The notes beneath the pieces are model-generated. The model saw only the letters and a program-made list of their open reading frames with translations. It made no database searches and was not told where the DNA came from. A DNA stretch of 7,739 bases from DATDCY01 sp031406795 [NCBI: Candidatus Rokuibacteriota bacterium] (GTDB lineage: Bacteria > JAUVQV01). Location: NCBI GenBank assembly GCA_031406795.1, contig JANOHV010000250.1:1-7739 (forward strand), in the 5' to 3' direction. Position numbers and translations under genes: made by a program. Of the stretch, positions 560-7,731 are shown in pieces. Within the stretch, counting starts at the first letter, position 1. Every line of letters starts with the position of its first letter.

Positions 560-1324
560 ATGCAATCGCTGGATACGATGGTTTTGAGACATGGCCGCGG
601 GGCCACGGGTGTGGCCGACGGGCGCGACGAGAGCTTCGAGGTCCCCTCCGCCGAGAGCAAGTTCGTCGGCGCCGGCGACCTCGAGGAGTTCGTGATCGCC
701 TGGCTGCGGCACGTCTGCCTCCCCGACCCCGTGCACCCCGACGCGGTCGTGTCCTCCCTCTATTACGACACGCCGGCCCTGAGCGCCTACCACGAGAAGG
801 TCGACGGCGATTTTCTCAAGACGAAGTGCCGCCTGCGCTGGTACGACCCGGATATCGCGGCCGATCCCGCGCTGCGGACGGCCTATCTCGAAATCAAGCA
901 CAAGATCGGGCAGGGGCGGCGCAAATCGCGGGCCCGGGTGGTCGTGGAGCGCACCTGGTTCGACGACGCCAGCCTCGATCACCCGGCATTCCTCGAAATC
1001 CTCTCCCGCGAAGCCCCGACCCTCGGGGAGCGCCTGCCGTCGGGGCTGCTGCCGGCGGCCGTGGTGCGCTATCGGCGGCGACGGTTCATCTGCCCCTTCA
1101 CGCTCTCGCGGATCTGCCTGGACACCGGCATCGGGCTCGGGCGGGTCAACGAGCGTCTGCTGCCGCGTCTCGGCCCGGTGAAGCTCGGGACCATCGTGCT
1201 GGAGGTCAAGGACGGTAGATCGGCGCAGATTCCCTGGCTGGCGAAGCTCTACGCATCGGGGATCAGGCAGCGCAGCTTTTCCAAATACGGGGCCTGCATC
1301 GCCAGTCTGCTCAAGGAGGCGTGA
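560..1324 (+). CDS. VTC-domain polyphosphate polymerase family protein
   Basis: A 254-residue cytosolic protein without membrane segments, matching the VTC domain of the triphosphate tunnel metalloenzyme fold. In yeast Vtc4 this domain makes polyphosphate from ATP in a tunnel lined by basic residues and metal-binding glutamates. Visible landmarks in order: ESKF (32-35, the family's opening ExKF), SLYYDTP (66-72), YHEKVDG (77-83), the basic strand KTKCRLRWY (87-95), LEIKHK (110-115), YRRRRF (171-176), RICLDTGI (184-191), TIVLEVK (211-217) and FSKYGACI (240-247). Alternating Lys, Arg and Glu on strands is what the tunnel requires, so the enzyme looks intact. The start is uncertain: ATG 560 has no well-spaced Shine-Dalgarno and almost touches the predicted transcription start; ATG 578 and GTG 611 are in-frame alternatives that keep the whole domain. 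The stop lies 2 bases before the likely start of the DUF4956 gene. Product and polymer direction are inferred from the family. Confidence 0.87.
   Translation: MQSLDTMVLRHGRGATGVADGRDESFEVPSAESKFVGAGDLEEFVIAWLRHVCLPDPVHPDAVVSSLYYDTPALSAYHEKVDGDFLKTKCRLRWYDPDIAADPALRTAYLEIKHKIGQGRRKSRARVVVERTWFDDASLDHPAFLEILSREAPTLGERLPSGLLPAAVVRYRRRRFICPFTLSRICLDTGIGLGRVNERLLPRLGPVKLGTIVLEVKDGRSAQIPWLAKLYASGIRQRSFSKYGACIASLLKEA
1313..1319 (+). promoter_or_regulatory. Shine-Dalgarno AAGGAGG that decides the DUF4956 start
   Basis: AAGGAGG lies inside the last codons of the VTC-domain gene. It is only 1 base from the GTG at 1321, too close for use, but 7 bases from the second in-frame GTG at 1327, the ideal distance. 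This favours 1327 over the longer frame that begins at 1321. Confidence 0.7.
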
Positions 1325-1326
1325 TC

Positions 1327-2019
1327 GTGTTCGACCAACTGCAGAAGATCAAGGACGTCCAGGACCTCACGGCCAGGATCGACCCCTGGCTGTTCGGCAT
1401 CGCCATCCTCGTCTCGCTCGGCGCGTCGCTGGCGGCCAGCTGGCTCTACAACCGCTTCTACGAGCGCCGGGGGACCGGCAGCCAGATCAACCGCGCTTTC
1501 CCCCTCCTCGGCATCTCCATCACCGCCCTGTTCATCTGCATCCAGGTCTCGCTCCCGCTGTCGCTCGGCCTGCTCGGCGCCCTGTCGATCATCCGCTTCC
1601 GCACGCCGGTCAAGGAGCCGGAGGAGGTCGGGTTCATCATGCTGGTCATCGCCTCATCGATCATCTGCGCGACCTTCAACTTCCAGTTCCTGCTCTTTCT
1701 CTTCCTCGTCGCCGTGGCCGCCCTCGTGGGGATCAGCTGGTTCCGCCGCGGCAACCGGTCGGGGCGCGACGGCATCGTTCTCGTGACGCTCGGCGACGAG
1801 GATGCGACCCTGCGCCAGAAGGAGATCGAGGAGTGCGTCGGACGGCACGCCCGGCGCAGCTTCGTCGAGAGCGCCGCCAGCCAGGACGGGCTCGCCAGCC
1901 TCCAGTTCTCCTTCACGGACTTCCAGGGAGGCGTGGCCGATCTGCAGGCCGAGCTGAAGCGGCTGGCTCCGGTCAACTCGGTCCGGATCTTTTTCAATCG
2001 CCCCGGCGGCCTCTCCTGA
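1327..2019 (+). CDS. DUF4956 family membrane protein
   Basis: A 230-residue protein with hydrophobic segments at about residues 21-40, 57-73, 74-90, 101-115 and 117-137, then a soluble C-terminal domain of about 90 residues. The family signature is clear: LGALSIIRFRTPVKEPEE (83-100) sits at the end of a membrane segment, as in other DUF4956 proteins. The biochemical function of the family is not established as far as I know. Its genes often lie beside VTC-domain and CotH genes, as here. In the yeast VTC complex a small membrane domain accompanies the catalytic domain and helps move polyphosphate across the membrane; this protein could play that part for the upstream enzyme (inference). The C-terminal tail (QFSFTDF, then NSVRIFFNRP) resembles a small alpha/beta regulatory domain. 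The GTG start at 1327 is chosen for its Shine-Dalgarno; with GTG 1321 the protein would be 232 residues and overlap the preceding stop. Confidence 0.87.
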   Translation: MFDQLQKIKDVQDLTARIDPWLFGIAILVSLGASLAASWLYNRFYERRGTGSQINRAFPLLGISITALFICIQVSLPLSLGLLGALSIIRFRTPVKEPEEVGFIMLVIASSIICATFNFQFLLFLFLVAVAALVGISWFRRGNRSGRDGIVLVTLGDEDATLRQKEIEECVGRHARRSFVESAASQDGLASLQFSFTDFQGGVADLQAELKRLAPVNSVRIFFNRPGGLS

Positions 2020-2048
2020 AGGGGACGGCCGGCTTCCGGGAGCGTCTG

Positions 2049-4939
2049 ATGGAGTCGGGCAACCGGAGGAAGCTCGGATACGCGGCCGCGGCCGCGATCG
2101 TCGTGCTGCTCCTCGCGGGCCTCTCGTGCGGCGCCGGTTTCCTGCTGGACTCCCTGACCAAGGCCGTCGATCTCGGCGAGCGCGGCATCGGCGGCAGGCT
2201 GAGGCGGGCCGGCGTCCTCGCGCACTGGGATTTCGACGAGCTCCGGCCGCGCGAGCGGGTCGGCCGCGAGGGCGTCGTCACTGGCGGGACGCGGCTCATC
2301 GCCGGCCGCAACGGCTCGGCCCGGGCCTTCCCCCCCGGGGAGCACGGCGTGATCCGCACCGCGTTTCCCCTGCCGTCCCTGGGTTCCCATTTCACCTTCT
2401 CCTGCTGGCTGCGCTTCCCGGAGCGGATCGTCAACCAGCAGATCTTCCAGTACCTGACGGTCCGCGACGGGAGCCTGGTCTTTCAGATGCCCCGCCAGGA
2501 ACCCCTCGCCTGGGCAATCGCCGGCCGGCAGGGCTTCTTCCACGTCGCGTTCACCGTCGATCAGGACGAAGGCCGCGCCGCTCTGTACGTCGACGGCGAT
2601 CCGGCGGGGGAGGTGCGGCTGGGCCCGCTGAAGCACCCCGGCGAATCGCTCTGCTTCGGTCAGGACCGGCTGACGCCGCCGCCGGCGTTCGCCCTGGACG
2701 AGGTGTCCATCTGGAGCCGCACGCTCACCGCGCCGGAAATCCGCCGTCTCAGCCGTCTGCGGTGGCCGCTCATTTTCGACAACGCCTTCCTCGCCGCGAC
2801 TGCGCTGCGGGTGGCGGAGGCGGCTCGCGAATCCTGCCGGGCCCTGCTGCTGGCTGCCGATCTCTTCGATCCCTCCCTCCACGAAAGCCGGATCTACGCC
2901 TCCGGGCTGCCCACCTACGCCCTGTCGCTCTCGGGCGCCGACGTCAAGGAGTTCAACAAGTACTTCAACGAGCAGTCCGAGAACGGCCTCAACGCGCCCG
3001 GGACGTCGAAGAGACGCACGGTCGAGGTCCTCGAAGGCGGCGGCAGGCGCCGGGCGGCGATGGAGTTGGTCGCGGGGGACCATGGCGGTCCGGAGGCTTC
3101 CGCAAAGCGCGCGTTCCGTCTCGAGATGCTCTCCGACGACGACGAGCCGGAGCGGACGCTGTTCATCCGGCCGATCGAGGGCTCGCCGTTCCTCCTCGAG
3201 GTGCTGGCCGGGAGGCTGGCCGAGCGCTGCGGCGTTTCCGCAGCGCCCACGGAGCTGTGCGCCGTGAGTGTCAACGGCGCCTTCGAGGGCCTCTCGCTCT
3301 GCTCGGATGTCTCGCGGGAACAGGGGCCGTTCTGGCTTTCGGCTCCCGGCCAGGCGCAGGAGCTGCTGCGGCGGCTGCCGCTGTTCCGGGACGAGGTCCT
3401 CGGCGAGTTCGACCGGCTCGCGTCCGGGTGGCGCGCCGTGCTGCGGAGCGACCGGAAGAGCCCGCTTTCCAGCCGCGAGATGCTCAGCCGCATCAAGGCG
3501 CAGCGGCGGCTCCTCGAAGAGACGCTCACCGATCGGACGGTGCGGTCCGACGCGGCGCTGGTCGCGCTGGTGGCCGATCGGCTGCGGGAGGAGATGTTCC
3601 TCGGCGACAATCCGCACGCCGGCCTCCTCGTGGGCGATCTCGATCTCTCGGTGCGGACGGTCAACGGCGCCGCGCTCTCTTTCGCGAGTCTGACACCGGC
3701 GACGCTCGGCAACGACGGCGGGGTCTTTCCGCCGGAGGGCGCGGCGGCTTCCGCCCGACTGCGGGTGAGCATCACCAGCGGAACGGCGGTCGCCGCGCGC
3801 GAACTCTCCTTCGTCGTTCTGCCCGGGCGTCGGCGGATCCCGGTGCTGCGGGTGCAGTCGGCCGGCGCCCCCCGATCGGGGCCACCGTGCCCGCCCTTGC
3901 GGAGTTCATCGAGCCGGACAATCGCCGCAGCGGCCTGCTGGGCGGGGACATCCGCCTGCGCGGCAACACGTCGTTGTACCAGGCCAGGAACCAGAAGAAG
4001 TACTATCGCGTCGAGCTCGACCGGCCGTACGACGTCCCCGGGGTCGGCCGCACCCGGCGACTGCTGCTGATCTCGGGGTGGAAGGACAAGACCCTGATGC
4101 GCGACCGGCTGGCCTACGACCTGTTCCGGAGTTTCTCCGAACCCGGGAAACCGCGCTACAGCCCGCACGTCCGGCTCGTCGAACTGGTCGTCAACGGCGA
4201 CTACAAGGGGCTGTACAACCTGGTCGACCGGGTTGACGCCGATCTGCTCGAACTGGGGAAGGGCTCCGGGGCCGACCGTGCCGTGCTCTACAAGGCGACC
4301 GGCTCCGGGGCGAGCTTCAAGACCCCCGACCGGGATTCCTACGTCCAGCAGGTCCCCGACTGGCGGGACGGGGAGTTCTGGGGCCCGTACGAGAAGCTGA
4401 TCGCCTTCGTCGGCCAGTCGACGCCGGAGGTGTTTCGCAGGGACGTCGAGCGGATCATCGACGTCGACAACGTCATCGATTTCGAGATCCTGCTGGCGCT
4501 GACCGCCAACGGGGAAGGGCAGAACTACAACCTCTACCTCGCGCGGCGCGCGGGAGCCGACGCCCGGTTCGTCATCGTCCCGTGGGATTACGACATCAGT
4601 TTCAGCCTGGCGTTCGTCCCCTCCAACCACCTGATCGCCCGGCTGCACGCGGATCTGCCGGGATACAGCAGCCGTGTGGCGGAGCGTTGGCGGGACTTGC
4701 GCAAGGACCGCCTCTCCGAGAGCGGGCTCATGGAACGGATCGCCGGCCTGGAGGCCGAGATGCTCGAGGGCGTCGAGCGGAACTACCGTCGCTGGCCGCC
4801 CACCGAAGGGGAGACCTGGGCGGGGATGGTCCCCCAGCTGCGGTCCTACCTCCGCGGCCGGCTGCCCCTCCTCGACGCCTGGTTCGCCGGCAGACCGGGC
4901 GCCGCGCCGGGAAGCCTTCACCAAGGAGACACGCCATGA
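2049..4939 (+). CDS. CotH kinase family protein with LamG and Ig-like domains (frameshifted)
   Basis: Read across a one-base frameshift at 3868-3873, the product is 963 residues; as sequenced, the first frame stops at 4070 (673 residues). ATG 2049 has GGGAG 6 bases upstream. Domains: cytosolic start and one hydrophobic segment (about 10-33, an anchor or a weak lipoprotein signal ending at Cys27); LamG-like concanavalin fold (56-235: HWDFDE, FTFSCWL, AALYVDGDPAGE, LDEVSIWSR); a degenerate CotH-like half (285-500); an atrophied bacterial Ig-like domain (about 521-592); and canonical CotH (598-945). The last shows DIRLRGNTS (634-642), KKYYRVELD (650-658), MRDRLAYDLF (684-693), VNGDYKGLY (715-723), NYNLYL (826-831) and PWDYD (845-849), whose aspartates match the metal-binding DxD of CotH kinases. 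CotH proteins are secreted-type kinases; in Bacillus CotH phosphorylates spore coat proteins. Here it should act outside the cytoplasmic membrane; the substrate is unknown. Its stop overlaps the next start. Confidence 0.85.
3868..3873 (+). other. Frameshift site: run of six C in the CotH-like gene
   Basis: Up to codon CCC 3870-3872 the upstream frame encodes recognisable protein (PVLRVQSAGAP). Beyond it that frame turns into an arginine/serine-rich shadow and stops at 4070, while the frame one base back begins at CCG 3872-3874 with PIGATVPALAEFIEP and runs through all conserved CotH motifs to 4939. One extra C would restore a single frame. A run of seven C at 2330-2336 in the same gene stays in frame, so length errors in C-runs are not general here. 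Confidence 0.85.
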
Positions 4940-7731
4940 AGCCACGGACCAAGGCCCTGCTGCTGGCGCTGCTGTTGCTGCTGGGGGTCTGCTACCGGCT
5001 CTTTGCCGCCTACCCGATCCGGCTGGGCCGGTTCGCGCCCGCATCCTCGGCGCTGCAGGCGATGCACATCATGAACGGCGAGCGGCCGATCTTCTACTCG
5101 GGGCAGGCCTGGATGGGGCCCGCGGGCGCCTACGTCCTCGCCGGCCTCTTCAAGCTCTTCGGCGCGTCGTCCCTGACCCTCGGGGGGTTCTCCTGGATCA
5201 TGAGCGTCCTGTTCCTGCTGGGGACCGTCCTGCTGGCCTACCGGCTCTTCGGCATCGACAACGCCCTGGTGGTGGCCGGGCTATTCCTCGTCCCCATCGA
5301 CTGGGTCATGTACCTGGCGGGGCAGCCGCGCGCGCACTACACGATCATCTTCGTCCTGGTGCCGATCGTCTTTCTGGCGACGCTGGCGCTGCTGCGACGG
5401 CACCGGGAGGGCCGCCCCCTGGCGTTGACGGCCTTCCTGCTCGGCCTGCTGTGCGGGTTCGCCTTCTGGACCAACATGTCGATCGGGCCGGCCATCGGCG
5501 TATCGGTGCTCCTGCTGCTCTGGCATCTGCGGCGATCCTTCTTCACGCGCGTTCTTCCCGGCTGGAGCGCCGGCTGGGTGCTCGGCTTCTCGCCGGTCAT
5601 CTGGTACAACCTGACCCATCAGGCGATCCTCGCGGAGCAGGTGAACGCGAGAAACACCCGGCAGCTCGGCCGCATTCTCTGGGCCTTCCTGACCAACGCC
5701 TGGCCGAAATTCTGGGGGTTCGACCTCAGCGCGACCCCGACCCCGCTGCTGCATGGCGTGTTCGTCCTGCTGCTCGTCTGGATCAGCTTCCTCTACGTCT
5801 GGGCGCTCGTTCAGGGGTTGCGGAAGTGGCGGCGCGGGGAGGACGTGCTCGGCTACCAGCTGGTCTTCGGCTACTTCTTCTTCCACCTGGCGATCACCGC
5901 GGTCTCCAGCTACGGGAAGCGATTCACCGAGGGGACGCCCCTCTCCTACATCGTTACTCTGTACACGGTGGCGTTTGCCATACCGGCTCTCGTGCTGCAA
6001 TCCGGCCTCACGCGGCGTGCGAAAGCCCTGGCGCTGCTGCCCTTCGGGATCTTCATCGCCAACAACCTTGCGGCCAACACCGTCTACCCGGCGAAGTTCC
6101 TCGCCACCGTCCGGGAGCAGGGACTCTCCCGGGTGACGCGGTATCCCAACGAGGCGAACCCGTTCGTGCGCTACTTCCGGGAGCGCGGGCTAGCGGCCGG
6201 CTACCTGGGCCGGTTCCAGGGCGCCGATACCGCGAAGAACCAGAATTTCCCCCTCAATCTGGAGTGCTTCGGGGTGGGCACGTTCTCCGACCCCTCCAGC
6301 GAGCGGTATGTCGAGAGCGCCCTGGCCGCCGATGCCGCCCGGAAGATCTTCTGGGTCAACGCCGACCCGAACCAGCTGCGGCTGCTCGGCGTCACCTCGC
6401 GGGCGGCACCCGTACAGCAGTGGGAGGTGCACGACGATTTTCGCAAGGAGTTGCGCGAGCTGACCGCCGTCCGCGGGCAGTTGACCGCGGCCTCGTACAA
6501 CCGGCCGCACGGCCTCTTCGCCTCGGACGGGAACTTCGACACCTCCTGGGACGTCCCCCGGGACGCCGGCACCGTGGCTCTCGATTTCGCGTTCGAGCGC
6601 CCCGAGCGGCTGCGGGAGCTCGTGATCTTCCCCGTCGACGTGCAGCGCAGCCCGACGAACGTCACCCTCGAGATCTCCGACGACGGGGTGAACTGGCGGC
6701 AGGCCTACCGGGCGAGCGACGCCGAGCCGATCTTCTGGTCGGTCTGGCATCCCTTCACGAAGAAGGTCAAGCCGCGGATGGAGCTGCTGCTCCCCGACGG
6801 CCTCGAGACCCGCTACTGCCGGCTGCGCTTCGACCCTTCCGGAAAGCGGGCCGGGCTGGCGATCCGCGAGATCCTCTTCCGCGGCGACGGCCCGGTGATC
6901 GACCCGGCGGCGTGGGAGCGGGACATCGACGATGTCGTCCGGGCGGTCGGGGCGCAGGGCGCCGGGGCGACCGTGGTCGGCGACCACTGGTTCGTCGACC
7001 ACTTTCGGCGCCTGGGCTTCGCGACGGATTTCATTTCGAACGAGACCTTCAGCAACACCGGCGAACTGAGCCCCAATCTGGTCAGCCCCGTTGCGCTGGA
7101 TTTCTCACGCCCGCAGGTCATGATCGTCCCCCGGGCGTTCGTTGGCCGCGTGGTGGGGCTCTTGCGCAGCCGTGGCGTGCCTTTCACTGAAACGGCGTTT
7201 CTCTACCACGTCATCTGCCGGACCGAGGCCGCCAAGGTCGACCCGCCGCTCTACTGGAACGGGCTGGAGCTGAACGATCTGGAGCCGCGGGTCGGCGAGC
7301 GGATGGCCTTCCCCTTCCGGCCGCTGCGGGAGTACGCCCCCGCCGCGGAGGCGACCTCGCTGCGCTTCGGCAAGGAGTTCGAGGTGACGGGAATCGCCGT
7401 TTCCCTCGACCAGGCCGCCCGGCGCATCGACCTCGCGTTCGAGGTGCTGCCGCTGCGCGAGACCGGCCGCGACTGGTGGATGTTCCTCCACGTCCTGGAT
7501 CAGCGGGGGAAGATCGTCGCCCAGGGGGACTTCCGGATGAAGCAGGCCGGCCTCGCCACCAGCTCCTGGCTGCCGGGCAAGCGGGTCGTCCTCGAGCGGG
7601 CCCTGGCGCTGCCCTCGGGATACTCGGGGAAGGCGTCCGTGCTCATGGGCGTCTCGGACCCGCAGTGGCGCAAGCGGCTGAAGCTCGAGGGCGACCAGAC
7701 CAAGGCCGTCATCTGGCGCGGCGACATCTAG
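4936..7731 (+). CDS. GT-C-type glycosyltransferase-like membrane protein with F5/8C domain
   Basis: A 931-residue protein. ATG 4936 overlaps the preceding TGA (ATGA), with AAGGAG 7 bases upstream. Residues 1-395 hold about ten hydrophobic segments (first 7-25, last near 363-380), with GT-C pattern: after the first segment, a loop with ALQAMHIMNGERPIFYSGQAWMG (39-61, read as two adjacent blocks) and AGLFKLFGASS, typical of PMT/ArnT-like enzymes that use polyprenyl-phosphate sugars on the outer face of the membrane. The acidic residue usual just before this block is absent (RFAPASS, 32-38). The large outer part contains a mixed alpha/beta region (396-500 and 655-770), a discoidin/F5-8C-like domain (about 513-650: DGNFDTSWDV, LEISDDGVNWRQAY, CRLRF, AIREILF), and a C-terminal beta-sandwich (808-930: WWMFLHVLDQRGKIVAQGDF, SWLPGK, GYSGKASVLMGVSD) like that at the end of many family 39 transferases. 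Acceptor and sugar are unknown. Last gene visible in the operon; only 8 bases follow. Confidence 0.8.
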   Translation: MKPRTKALLLALLLLLGVCYRLFAAYPIRLGRFAPASSALQAMHIMNGERPIFYSGQAWMGPAGAYVLAGLFKLFGASSLTLGGFSWIMSVLFLLGTVLLAYRLFGIDNALVVAGLFLVPIDWVMYLAGQPRAHYTIIFVLVPIVFLATLALLRRHREGRPLALTAFLLGLLCGFAFWTNMSIGPAIGVSVLLLLWHLRRSFFTRVLPGWSAGWVLGFSPVIWYNLTHQAILAEQVNARNTRQLGRILWAFLTNAWPKFWGFDLSATPTPLLHGVFVLLLVWISFLYVWALVQGLRKWRRGEDVLGYQLVFGYFFFHLAITAVSSYGKRFTEGTPLSYIVTLYTVAFAIPALVLQSGLTRRAKALALLPFGIFIANNLAANTVYPAKFLATVREQGLSRVTRYPNEANPFVRYFRERGLAAGYLGRFQGADTAKNQNFPLNLECFGVGTFSDPSSERYVESALAADAARKIFWVNADPNQLRLLGVTSRAAPVQQWEVHDDFRKELRELTAVRGQLTAASYNRPHGLFASDGNFDTSWDVPRDAGTVALDFAFERPERLRELVIFPVDVQRSPTNVTLEISDDGVNWRQAYRASDAEPIFWSVWHPFTKKVKPRMELLLPDGLETRYCRLRFDPSGKRAGLAIREILFRGDGPVIDPAAWERDIDDVVRAVGAQGAGATVVGDHWFVDHFRRLGFATDFISNETFSNTGELSPNLVSPVALDFSRPQVMIVPRAFVGRVVGLLRSRGVPFTETAFLYHVICRTEAAKVDPPLYWNGLELNDLEPRVGERMAFPFRPLREYAPAAEATSLRFGKEFEVTGIAVSLDQAARRIDLAFEVLPLRETGRDWWMFLHVLDQRGKIVAQGDFRMKQAGLATSSWLPGKRVVLERALALPSGYSGKASVLMGVSDPQWRKRLKLEGDQTKAVIWRGDI

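Follow-up and report, generated by a model that had tools for sequence, protein, structure and literature searches.

The subject of this study is a run of four genes in a stretch of DNA from DATDCY01 sp031406795 (Candidatus Rokuibacteriota), contig JANOHV010000250.1, read on the forward strand. The whole stretch analysed, 7,739 nt, is called the window. Pfam matches and open reading frames placed genes for a VTC-domain protein, a DUF4956 membrane protein, a CotH protein and a GT-C-like protein in succession on the plus strand, as follows:

560..1324, plus strand: VTC-domain protein, 254 amino acids (PF09359, E 1.4e-19)
1327..2019, plus strand: DUF4956 membrane protein, 230 amino acids, alternative start at 1321 (PF16316, E 1.6e-13)
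2049..3866, plus strand: N-terminal part of the CotH gene, with a membrane helix and a Laminin_G_3 domain (PF13385, E 4.7e-11; tblastn)
3867..3929, plus strand: stretch of the frame change, with a run of six C (tblastn of the proteins from loci L005 and L016)
3929..4939, plus strand: C-terminal part of the CotH gene, past the break, with the kinase-like domain (PF08757, E 3.4e-48)
4936..7731, plus strand: GT-C-like multi-helix protein, 931 amino acids, with a weak F5/8C-like domain (PMT_2, 26.7 bits)

The GTG start of the DUF4956 gene lies 2 bases past the VTC stop codon and is preceded by AAGGAGG, which resembles a ribosome-binding site. The CotH gene starts at 2049, 29 bases past DUF4956, and the ATG of the GT-C-like gene at 4936, preceded by AAGGAGA, overlaps the end of the CotH gene as ATGA. 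This order and spacing are those given in an earlier note on this DNA.

Relatives of the set were collected in two ways. A search with the window DUF4956 protein as query gave 42 loci, which were thus picked by likeness to it and lean toward the CotH type; the window VTC protein as query gave no match against the genome contigs, and a VTC search of plasmids found none. The loci came mostly from the PVC group, and also from Schekmanbacteria, Auribacterota, Spirochaetota, Fibrobacterota, Acidobacteria-related bacteria and Desulfovibrionales. They held 43 DUF4956 places, 40 with a VTC gene within 1.2 kb and 37 with a CotH match within 4.5 kb, in each case on the same strand. The earlier note had taken VTC, DUF4956 and CotH to be a recurring set, and their association is indeed beyond chance. 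To avoid choice by likeness, evenly drawn genomes were searched with the DUF4956 Pfam model, which was positive in 35 of 194 genomes of the phylum of locus L005 (44 places), 17 of 100 in the spirochaete phylum of L022 (17 places), and 3 of 148 in the phylum of L036 (3 places). These 55 genomes were then searched for VTC and CotH by Pfam. A control genome, that of Corynebacterium glutamicum, gave matches to all three families. VTC lay within 3 kb of DUF4956 on the same strand at 41/44, 5/17 and 3/3 places, respectively, and 50 of the 52 VTC matches (one gene giving two of them) had DUF4956 within 3 kb. CotH lay within 6 kb of DUF4956 at no fewer than 14/44, 9/17 (5 of them without VTC) and 2/3 places; these are lower bounds, counted from 53 CotH matches chosen mainly from contigs of interest. 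Other CotH calls came from a profile iterated in this analysis, and the CotH of L038 was not confirmed by Pfam. In the sample from the L005 phylum VTC and DUF4956 are thus a real, near-obligate pair, and CotH is an optional third partner.

Several loci departed from this pattern. In the spirochaete phylum, DUF4956 adjoins CotH with VTC not nearby at L063, L068 and L070 (the L070 DUF4956 giving a weak MgtC match), and L061, L065 and L066 carry a divergent type of DUF4956, which at L061 lies directly behind CheR and CheD; several CotH genes are near it at L061 and L066. Locus L039 (Nitratidesulfovibrio oxamicus) carries DUF4956 twice, in near-identical copies separated by about 2.5 kb, and each copy is followed by a CotH match. 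At L015 (Auribacterota) the gene after VTC-DUF4956, at 4259-5524, resembles by eye an MgtE N-domain with CBS parts.

The window VTC profile matched yeast Vtc4 (E 1.2e-10). The 13 best Foldseek matches of its AlphaFold2 model, which had a predicted local distance difference test (pLDDT) score of 87.6, were all VTC chains, and the model aligned with 3g3r at Z 17.1 (root-mean-square deviation 3.1, 204 aligned), consistent with the tunnel fold. Ten columns (K34, R91, R93, K113, K122, R173, D188, E215, K217 and K242) had no substitution in 97 relatives, four of which have a gap or two there; R91, R93, K113, K122, R173 and D188 were identical in all 97. Columns R91, R93, R173, E215 and K242 align with Vtc4 residues that we take, by presumed role and numbering, to be tunnel-lining Arg and Lys and the metal-site Glu. 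The columns and the model support the prediction, made also in the earlier note, that the window VTC protein is a triphosphate-tunnel enzyme of the polyphosphate-polymerase type. The tunnel polymerase domain and its site residues would be common to the window protein and the eukaryotic VTC complex (Vtc4, Vtc3, Vtc1), as would, in concept, the coupling of synthesis to passage through the membrane. Unlike that complex, the window set gave no SPX domain match, and its membrane protein is separate and MgtC-type, where the eukaryotic complex presumably has a Vtc1-like domain. A candidate VTC-DUF4956 fusion at L007 was dropped because the VTC of L007 lies in two frames.

For the DUF4956 protein at least four membrane helices are predicted, ahead of an ACT-like domain at the C-terminus. 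The protein's Arg90-Phe91-Arg92 motif, which adjoins a conserved membrane segment, was invariant in 108 of 108 sequences. In the structure model (pLDDT 83.3, predicted template modelling score 0.63) the C-terminal domain has a beta-alpha-beta-beta-alpha-beta order, and its top Foldseek match was the C-terminal domain of MgtC, 2lqj, at a weak E of 3.8e-3, followed by a ribosomal protein at 4.1e-3. The structure comparison matched the ACT-like end alone, gave nothing at E 0.001 and left the membrane part uncovered, and so excludes nothing; a DUF4956 profile gave only chance-level matches against the sequences of solved structures. HHalign of the 108 DUF4956 sequences against three MgtC proteins gave a probability of 96.6% (E 5e-10, 179 columns), with seven controls at or below 0.2%; only this broad alignment matched, a narrow one scoring 0.1%. 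By profile comparison, then, DUF4956 is related to MgtC over both the membrane and the ACT-like parts and belongs to the MgtC superfamily, whose molecular function is debated. The MgtC family differs at the second Arg of the Arg-Phe-Arg motif, and DUF4956, unlike that family, has a VTC neighbour in most lineages seen. SIR_1592 of Streptococcus intermedius has already been described as MgtC plus ACT (PMC12345266).

When the 44 places in the L005 phylum were sorted with our own profiles, HlyD adjoined DUF4956 on the same strand at 22 and same-strand CotH was present at 14; of the rest, 5 had VTC as the only partner and 3 lacked VTC. As loci, 43 of the 44 were examined, the other being the second place of genome G499, which is without VTC. 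A gene for an OEP (TolC-type) protein was also present at 13 of the 22 HlyD places. Pfam confirmed HlyD_3 in 22/22 proteins of alignment A3, which joins 20 sample proteins with those of L060 (spirochaete phylum) and L118 and leaves out the two-piece HlyD genes of L075 and L106, and confirmed OEP in 11/13 of alignment A4, which omits L103; the DUF4956 of L108, in two pieces, was counted once. As a control for density, the 22 genomes held 198 HlyD matches, or 9 each, from which we estimated the chance of HlyD adjacency to DUF4956 at about 1% or less. In the phylum of L027 (Acidobacteriota) VTC was present in 12 of 199 genomes, and among the 15 loci taken from it HlyD adjoins DUF4956 in L119 and L121, and a weak HlyD-like frame adjoins VTC in L120 and L122. 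On a Hymenobacter plasmid DUF4956 is followed by an annotated TolC-family gene, with VTC not found in the flanks. HlyD gave no match in four Bacillota/Actinomycetota loci (L136, L138, L139 and L140), and the window itself has neither HlyD nor OEP by Pfam, and thus no sign of a tripartite exporter. At L106 the order is VTC-DUF4956-HlyD (in two pieces)-OEP-CotH, all on one strand, and the units of L083 and L087 adjoin housekeeping genes (Dus in the one, TilS and seryl-tRNA synthetase in the other).

A scan of the neighbours of 24 HlyD units, with up to three frames per side of up to 1,100 amino acids and cut frames omitted, took 100 of 107 frames; the seven omitted are of 122-208 amino acids. 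At 1e-6, none of the ABC, RND or MFS models had more than one match among these 100 neighbours; the AAA model AAA_21 matched 2/100. Because no such partner recurs, DUF4956 is the sole recurring candidate for the inner-membrane part. As a separate observation, a carbohydrate-binding protein of the Cthe_2159 type, a family matching 2/100 neighbours, is encoded at 6478-8310 of L089, directly 5' of its VTC-DUF4956-HlyD-OEP unit.

On a tree of 108 DUF4956 sequences, the side holding the window comprised 54 rows (43 VTC-CotH, 9 VTC alone and 2 CotH alone; support 100/99). All 24 VTC-HlyD rows lay outside it, nearly as one group of 27 (support 86/90), and the HlyD label required 3 changes compared with 22.0 in shuffles, so the third partner follows the DUF4956 lineage. 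CotH occurred on both sides of the tree, and several rows, including L121, had long branches and unsure placement. In the full text of open-licence papers, where HlyD by name was covered only in part, the HlyD association was not found.

The CotH gene of the window lies in two frames, its N-terminal part in the frame of 2049-4070 and the PF08757 domain in the frame ending at 4939. The single intact protein of L005 (966 amino acids) matches the window by tblastn in frame 1 at 2118-3866 and in frame 3 at 3929-4888. The L016 protein shows the same split, the match in frame 3 beginning at 3929 or 3953, depending on which of the two proteins is used. A run of six C opens the gap between the frames (3866-3929). 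Since relatives in one frame span both window frames, this is one CotH gene that is broken in this record; the change may be a sequencing error or a real mutation. The earlier note, which lists an "anchored CotH protein", had not noticed the split. The product is probably membrane-anchored and outward-facing, and its CotH domain matched 5jd9 (phmmer E 1.4e-8). Asp228 and Asp251 variants of Bacillus subtilis CotH, including Gln at 228, are inactive (PMC7821199). If the Asp of 5jd9 is read as Asp228 from its spacing to Asp251, the corresponding column is Glu in the window, with the second Asp kept. Among 22 CotH domains this column is Asp in 16, Glu in 2 (the window and L005) and Asn in 4; therefore, on this reading, the kinase residue and its chemistry would not be retained across all CotH proteins of the trio, and the window protein is at most a putative kinase.

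The fourth gene barely reached its family score (PMT_2, cut-off 26.1 bits), and F5_F8_type_C (21.8 bits) fell under its cut-off of 28.2. A match at 1e-5 was found in 7 of the 42 genomes. The closest homologue, which aligns with query residues 6-460 at 51% identity, belongs to genome G015 (Auribacterota), on a different contig than the VTC-DUF4956 pair, which there has no adjoining CotH. Elsewhere the genes after CotH differ and include glutamine synthetase, adenylosuccinate lyase, a periplasmic binding protein and unknown ones; GT-C-like genes occur near L016 (under the cut-off) and L008. Given the placement of the homologue and the variable downstream genes, we rejected the idea of CotH and GT-C as one conserved unit with VTC. 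The earlier note had counted GT-C as a member of the set, and in the relatives examined that link was not conserved. A glycan setting is possible, though GT-C is no fixed partner of the trio. The first outer loop of the GT-C protein reads FAPAS in the window and L043; most other relatives have there an Asp, to which we presume a functional role.

The trio has appeared in print in another setting. CotH, a polyphosphate polymerase, DUF4956 and DUF4832 are listed as Pel accessory genes in streptococci, clostridia and bifidobacteria (PMC7112168). SIR_1592-1594 of S. intermedius place the same three families side by side as in the window, with a membrane protein of four segments plus an ACT domain, again as in the window, and a secreted CotH; loss of SIR_1592 or SIR_1594 alters Pel and aggregation, and the trio gene order is reported as not found outside Pel loci (PMC12345266). 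Read together, the two papers suggest that SIR_1592 is the DUF4956 protein. NELoc-2 of Clostridium perfringens (PMC2879425), in which the "tubulin" genes would be DUF4956, and a Planococcus plasmid locus also combine VTC with a membrane protein and CotH; downstream of these come a protein of 685-689 amino acids, a HEAT protein and a glycosyltransferase, none of which the window has. The window differs from the Gram-positive pel clusters in its CotH with Laminin_G_3, its GT-C-like fourth gene and its lack of Pel genes, no pel family being among its Pfam matches; the HlyD-OEP type of partner in other loci is a further difference. PelG, the sole pel gene searched, gave no match in 40 of the 42 genomes with window-type DUF4956, some of which may be incomplete; it was present in two, lying about 1 Mb from the trio in G022. 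The trio is thus known in print and is found here well outside its printed setting.

We consider secretion of polyphosphate by VTC and DUF4956, as a two-part synthase and translocator, to be the most likely reading of these results, although we hold it tentatively and would stop a little short of calling it probable. The cytosolic VTC enzyme would polymerize phosphate from ATP within a basic tunnel, and the MgtC-related DUF4956 protein would pass the chain, presumably polyphosphate, over the inner membrane. What lies downstream would be a swappable output module. In one DUF4956 lineage an HlyD adaptor, often with a TolC-type protein, would take the polymer over the outer membrane; the window belongs to a lineage in which the module would be the anchored CotH kinase-like protein, perhaps in a surface-glycan setting, represented here by the GT-C-like protein. 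The earlier note had cast DUF4956 as the translocator, and HlyD at half of the sample places (22/44), often with a TolC-type protein, makes this plausible.

Several points weigh against secretion. MgtC proteins are not known to us as polymer channels. In the spirochaete sample 12 of 17 DUF4956 places are without VTC within 3 kb, 5 of these near CotH, and DUF4956 therefore has a VTC-independent role. The HlyD units form almost one DUF4956 clade and so represent few independent events. The VTC model matches Vtc2p equally (Z 17.0), and phosphohydrolases also, so that the fold alone is no proof of a polymerase; the site columns do better as an argument for that predicted identity. The HlyD-type VTC proteins depart from the others at two columns conserved elsewhere, with Y68 replaced by Gln in 16/24 and S241 by Cys or Ala in 20/24. 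In S. intermedius loss of SIR_1592 gives more Pel and loss of CotH less, opposite effects that are not as one linear pathway predicts; a mutant in VTC went on aggregating and producing Pel (PMC12345266).

The strongest rival, which we regard as unlikely but worth keeping, is an exopolysaccharide accessory set, in which the trio tunes or modifies a secreted glycan by phosphate chemistry (for example, by phosphorylating the glycan or its synthase) and no polyphosphate leaves the cell. The Pel clusters and the S. intermedius mutants speak for it (PMC7112168; PMC12345266), as do glycan genes adjoining the trio in Planococcus and Pseudobutyrivibrio, an epimerase in L005 and the GT-C-like gene of the window. 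The scarcity of PelG and the housekeeping neighbours in several loci do not, and this proposal leaves the HlyD/TolC partners, which occur without a recurring glycan synthase, unexplained. A rather less likely possibility is that the MgtC-like DUF4956 protein works in the homeostasis of phosphate or ATP, with its ACT-like domain as the binding or sensing part, and regulates VTC, with HlyD/TolC acting on another substrate. The kinship with MgtC over both parts of the protein fits such a role, and Salmonella MgtC acts on ATP synthase and PhoR (PMC12345266); however, HlyD stands beside DUF4956 itself at half of the sample places, and no other recurring transporter was seen among the 100 neighbours. 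The full model of the earlier note, in which an extracytoplasmic CotH draws on exported polyphosphate as phosphoryl donor or metal buffer, is possible but weak, a guess that we find improbable: in a mixed set of 122 DUF4956 places 57 do have both VTC and same-strand CotH, and the ATP source of the spore-coat CotH is called unanswered (PMC7821199), but ATP is the published substrate of CotH (same paper), 27 of the 41 VTC-DUF4956 pairs in the L005-phylum sample are without CotH, CotH accompanies DUF4956 without VTC at 5/17 spirochaete places, the Asp228 column varies, and the DUF4956-like and CotH mutants shift Pel oppositely (PMC12345266).

Three further features of the window lie at or near its left end. 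A divergent gene start on the minus strand at 1-204, cut by the window edge, probably encodes a lipoprotein (signal ending FSGC). At 341-420, 5' of the VTC gene, an inverted-repeat element with GTTCGTGGTTCGACAGGCTCACCACGAAC was spotted by eye; we take such elements to be widespread repeats. TATAAT at 546-551 is just 8 bases 5' of the annotated VTC start; given this spacing, the VTC mRNA may carry almost no leader, or translation of VTC may in fact begin further downstream.

Extracellular polyphosphate occurs in bacteria, and we know of no dedicated bacterial exporter for it; it is also reported for a social amoeba (PMC10657179). The compact four-gene unit of VTC, DUF4956, HlyD and OEP, which could be transferred to a laboratory strain, makes the question of export testable. 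The results also tie the MgtC superfamily to a phosphate polymerase and correct the printed view of the VTC-DUF4956-CotH order as confined to Pel loci. A wider proposition, less likely than secretion by this pair and in our judgment rather unlikely, though within reach, is that VTC and an MgtC-type protein together form a system for polyphosphate secretion that is widespread among prokaryotes, in which HlyD-TolC exports the chain or CotH uses or anchors it, and that proteins of the MgtC fold are conduits for phosphate polymers or polyanions. If this were true, the MgtC family would gain a molecular function.

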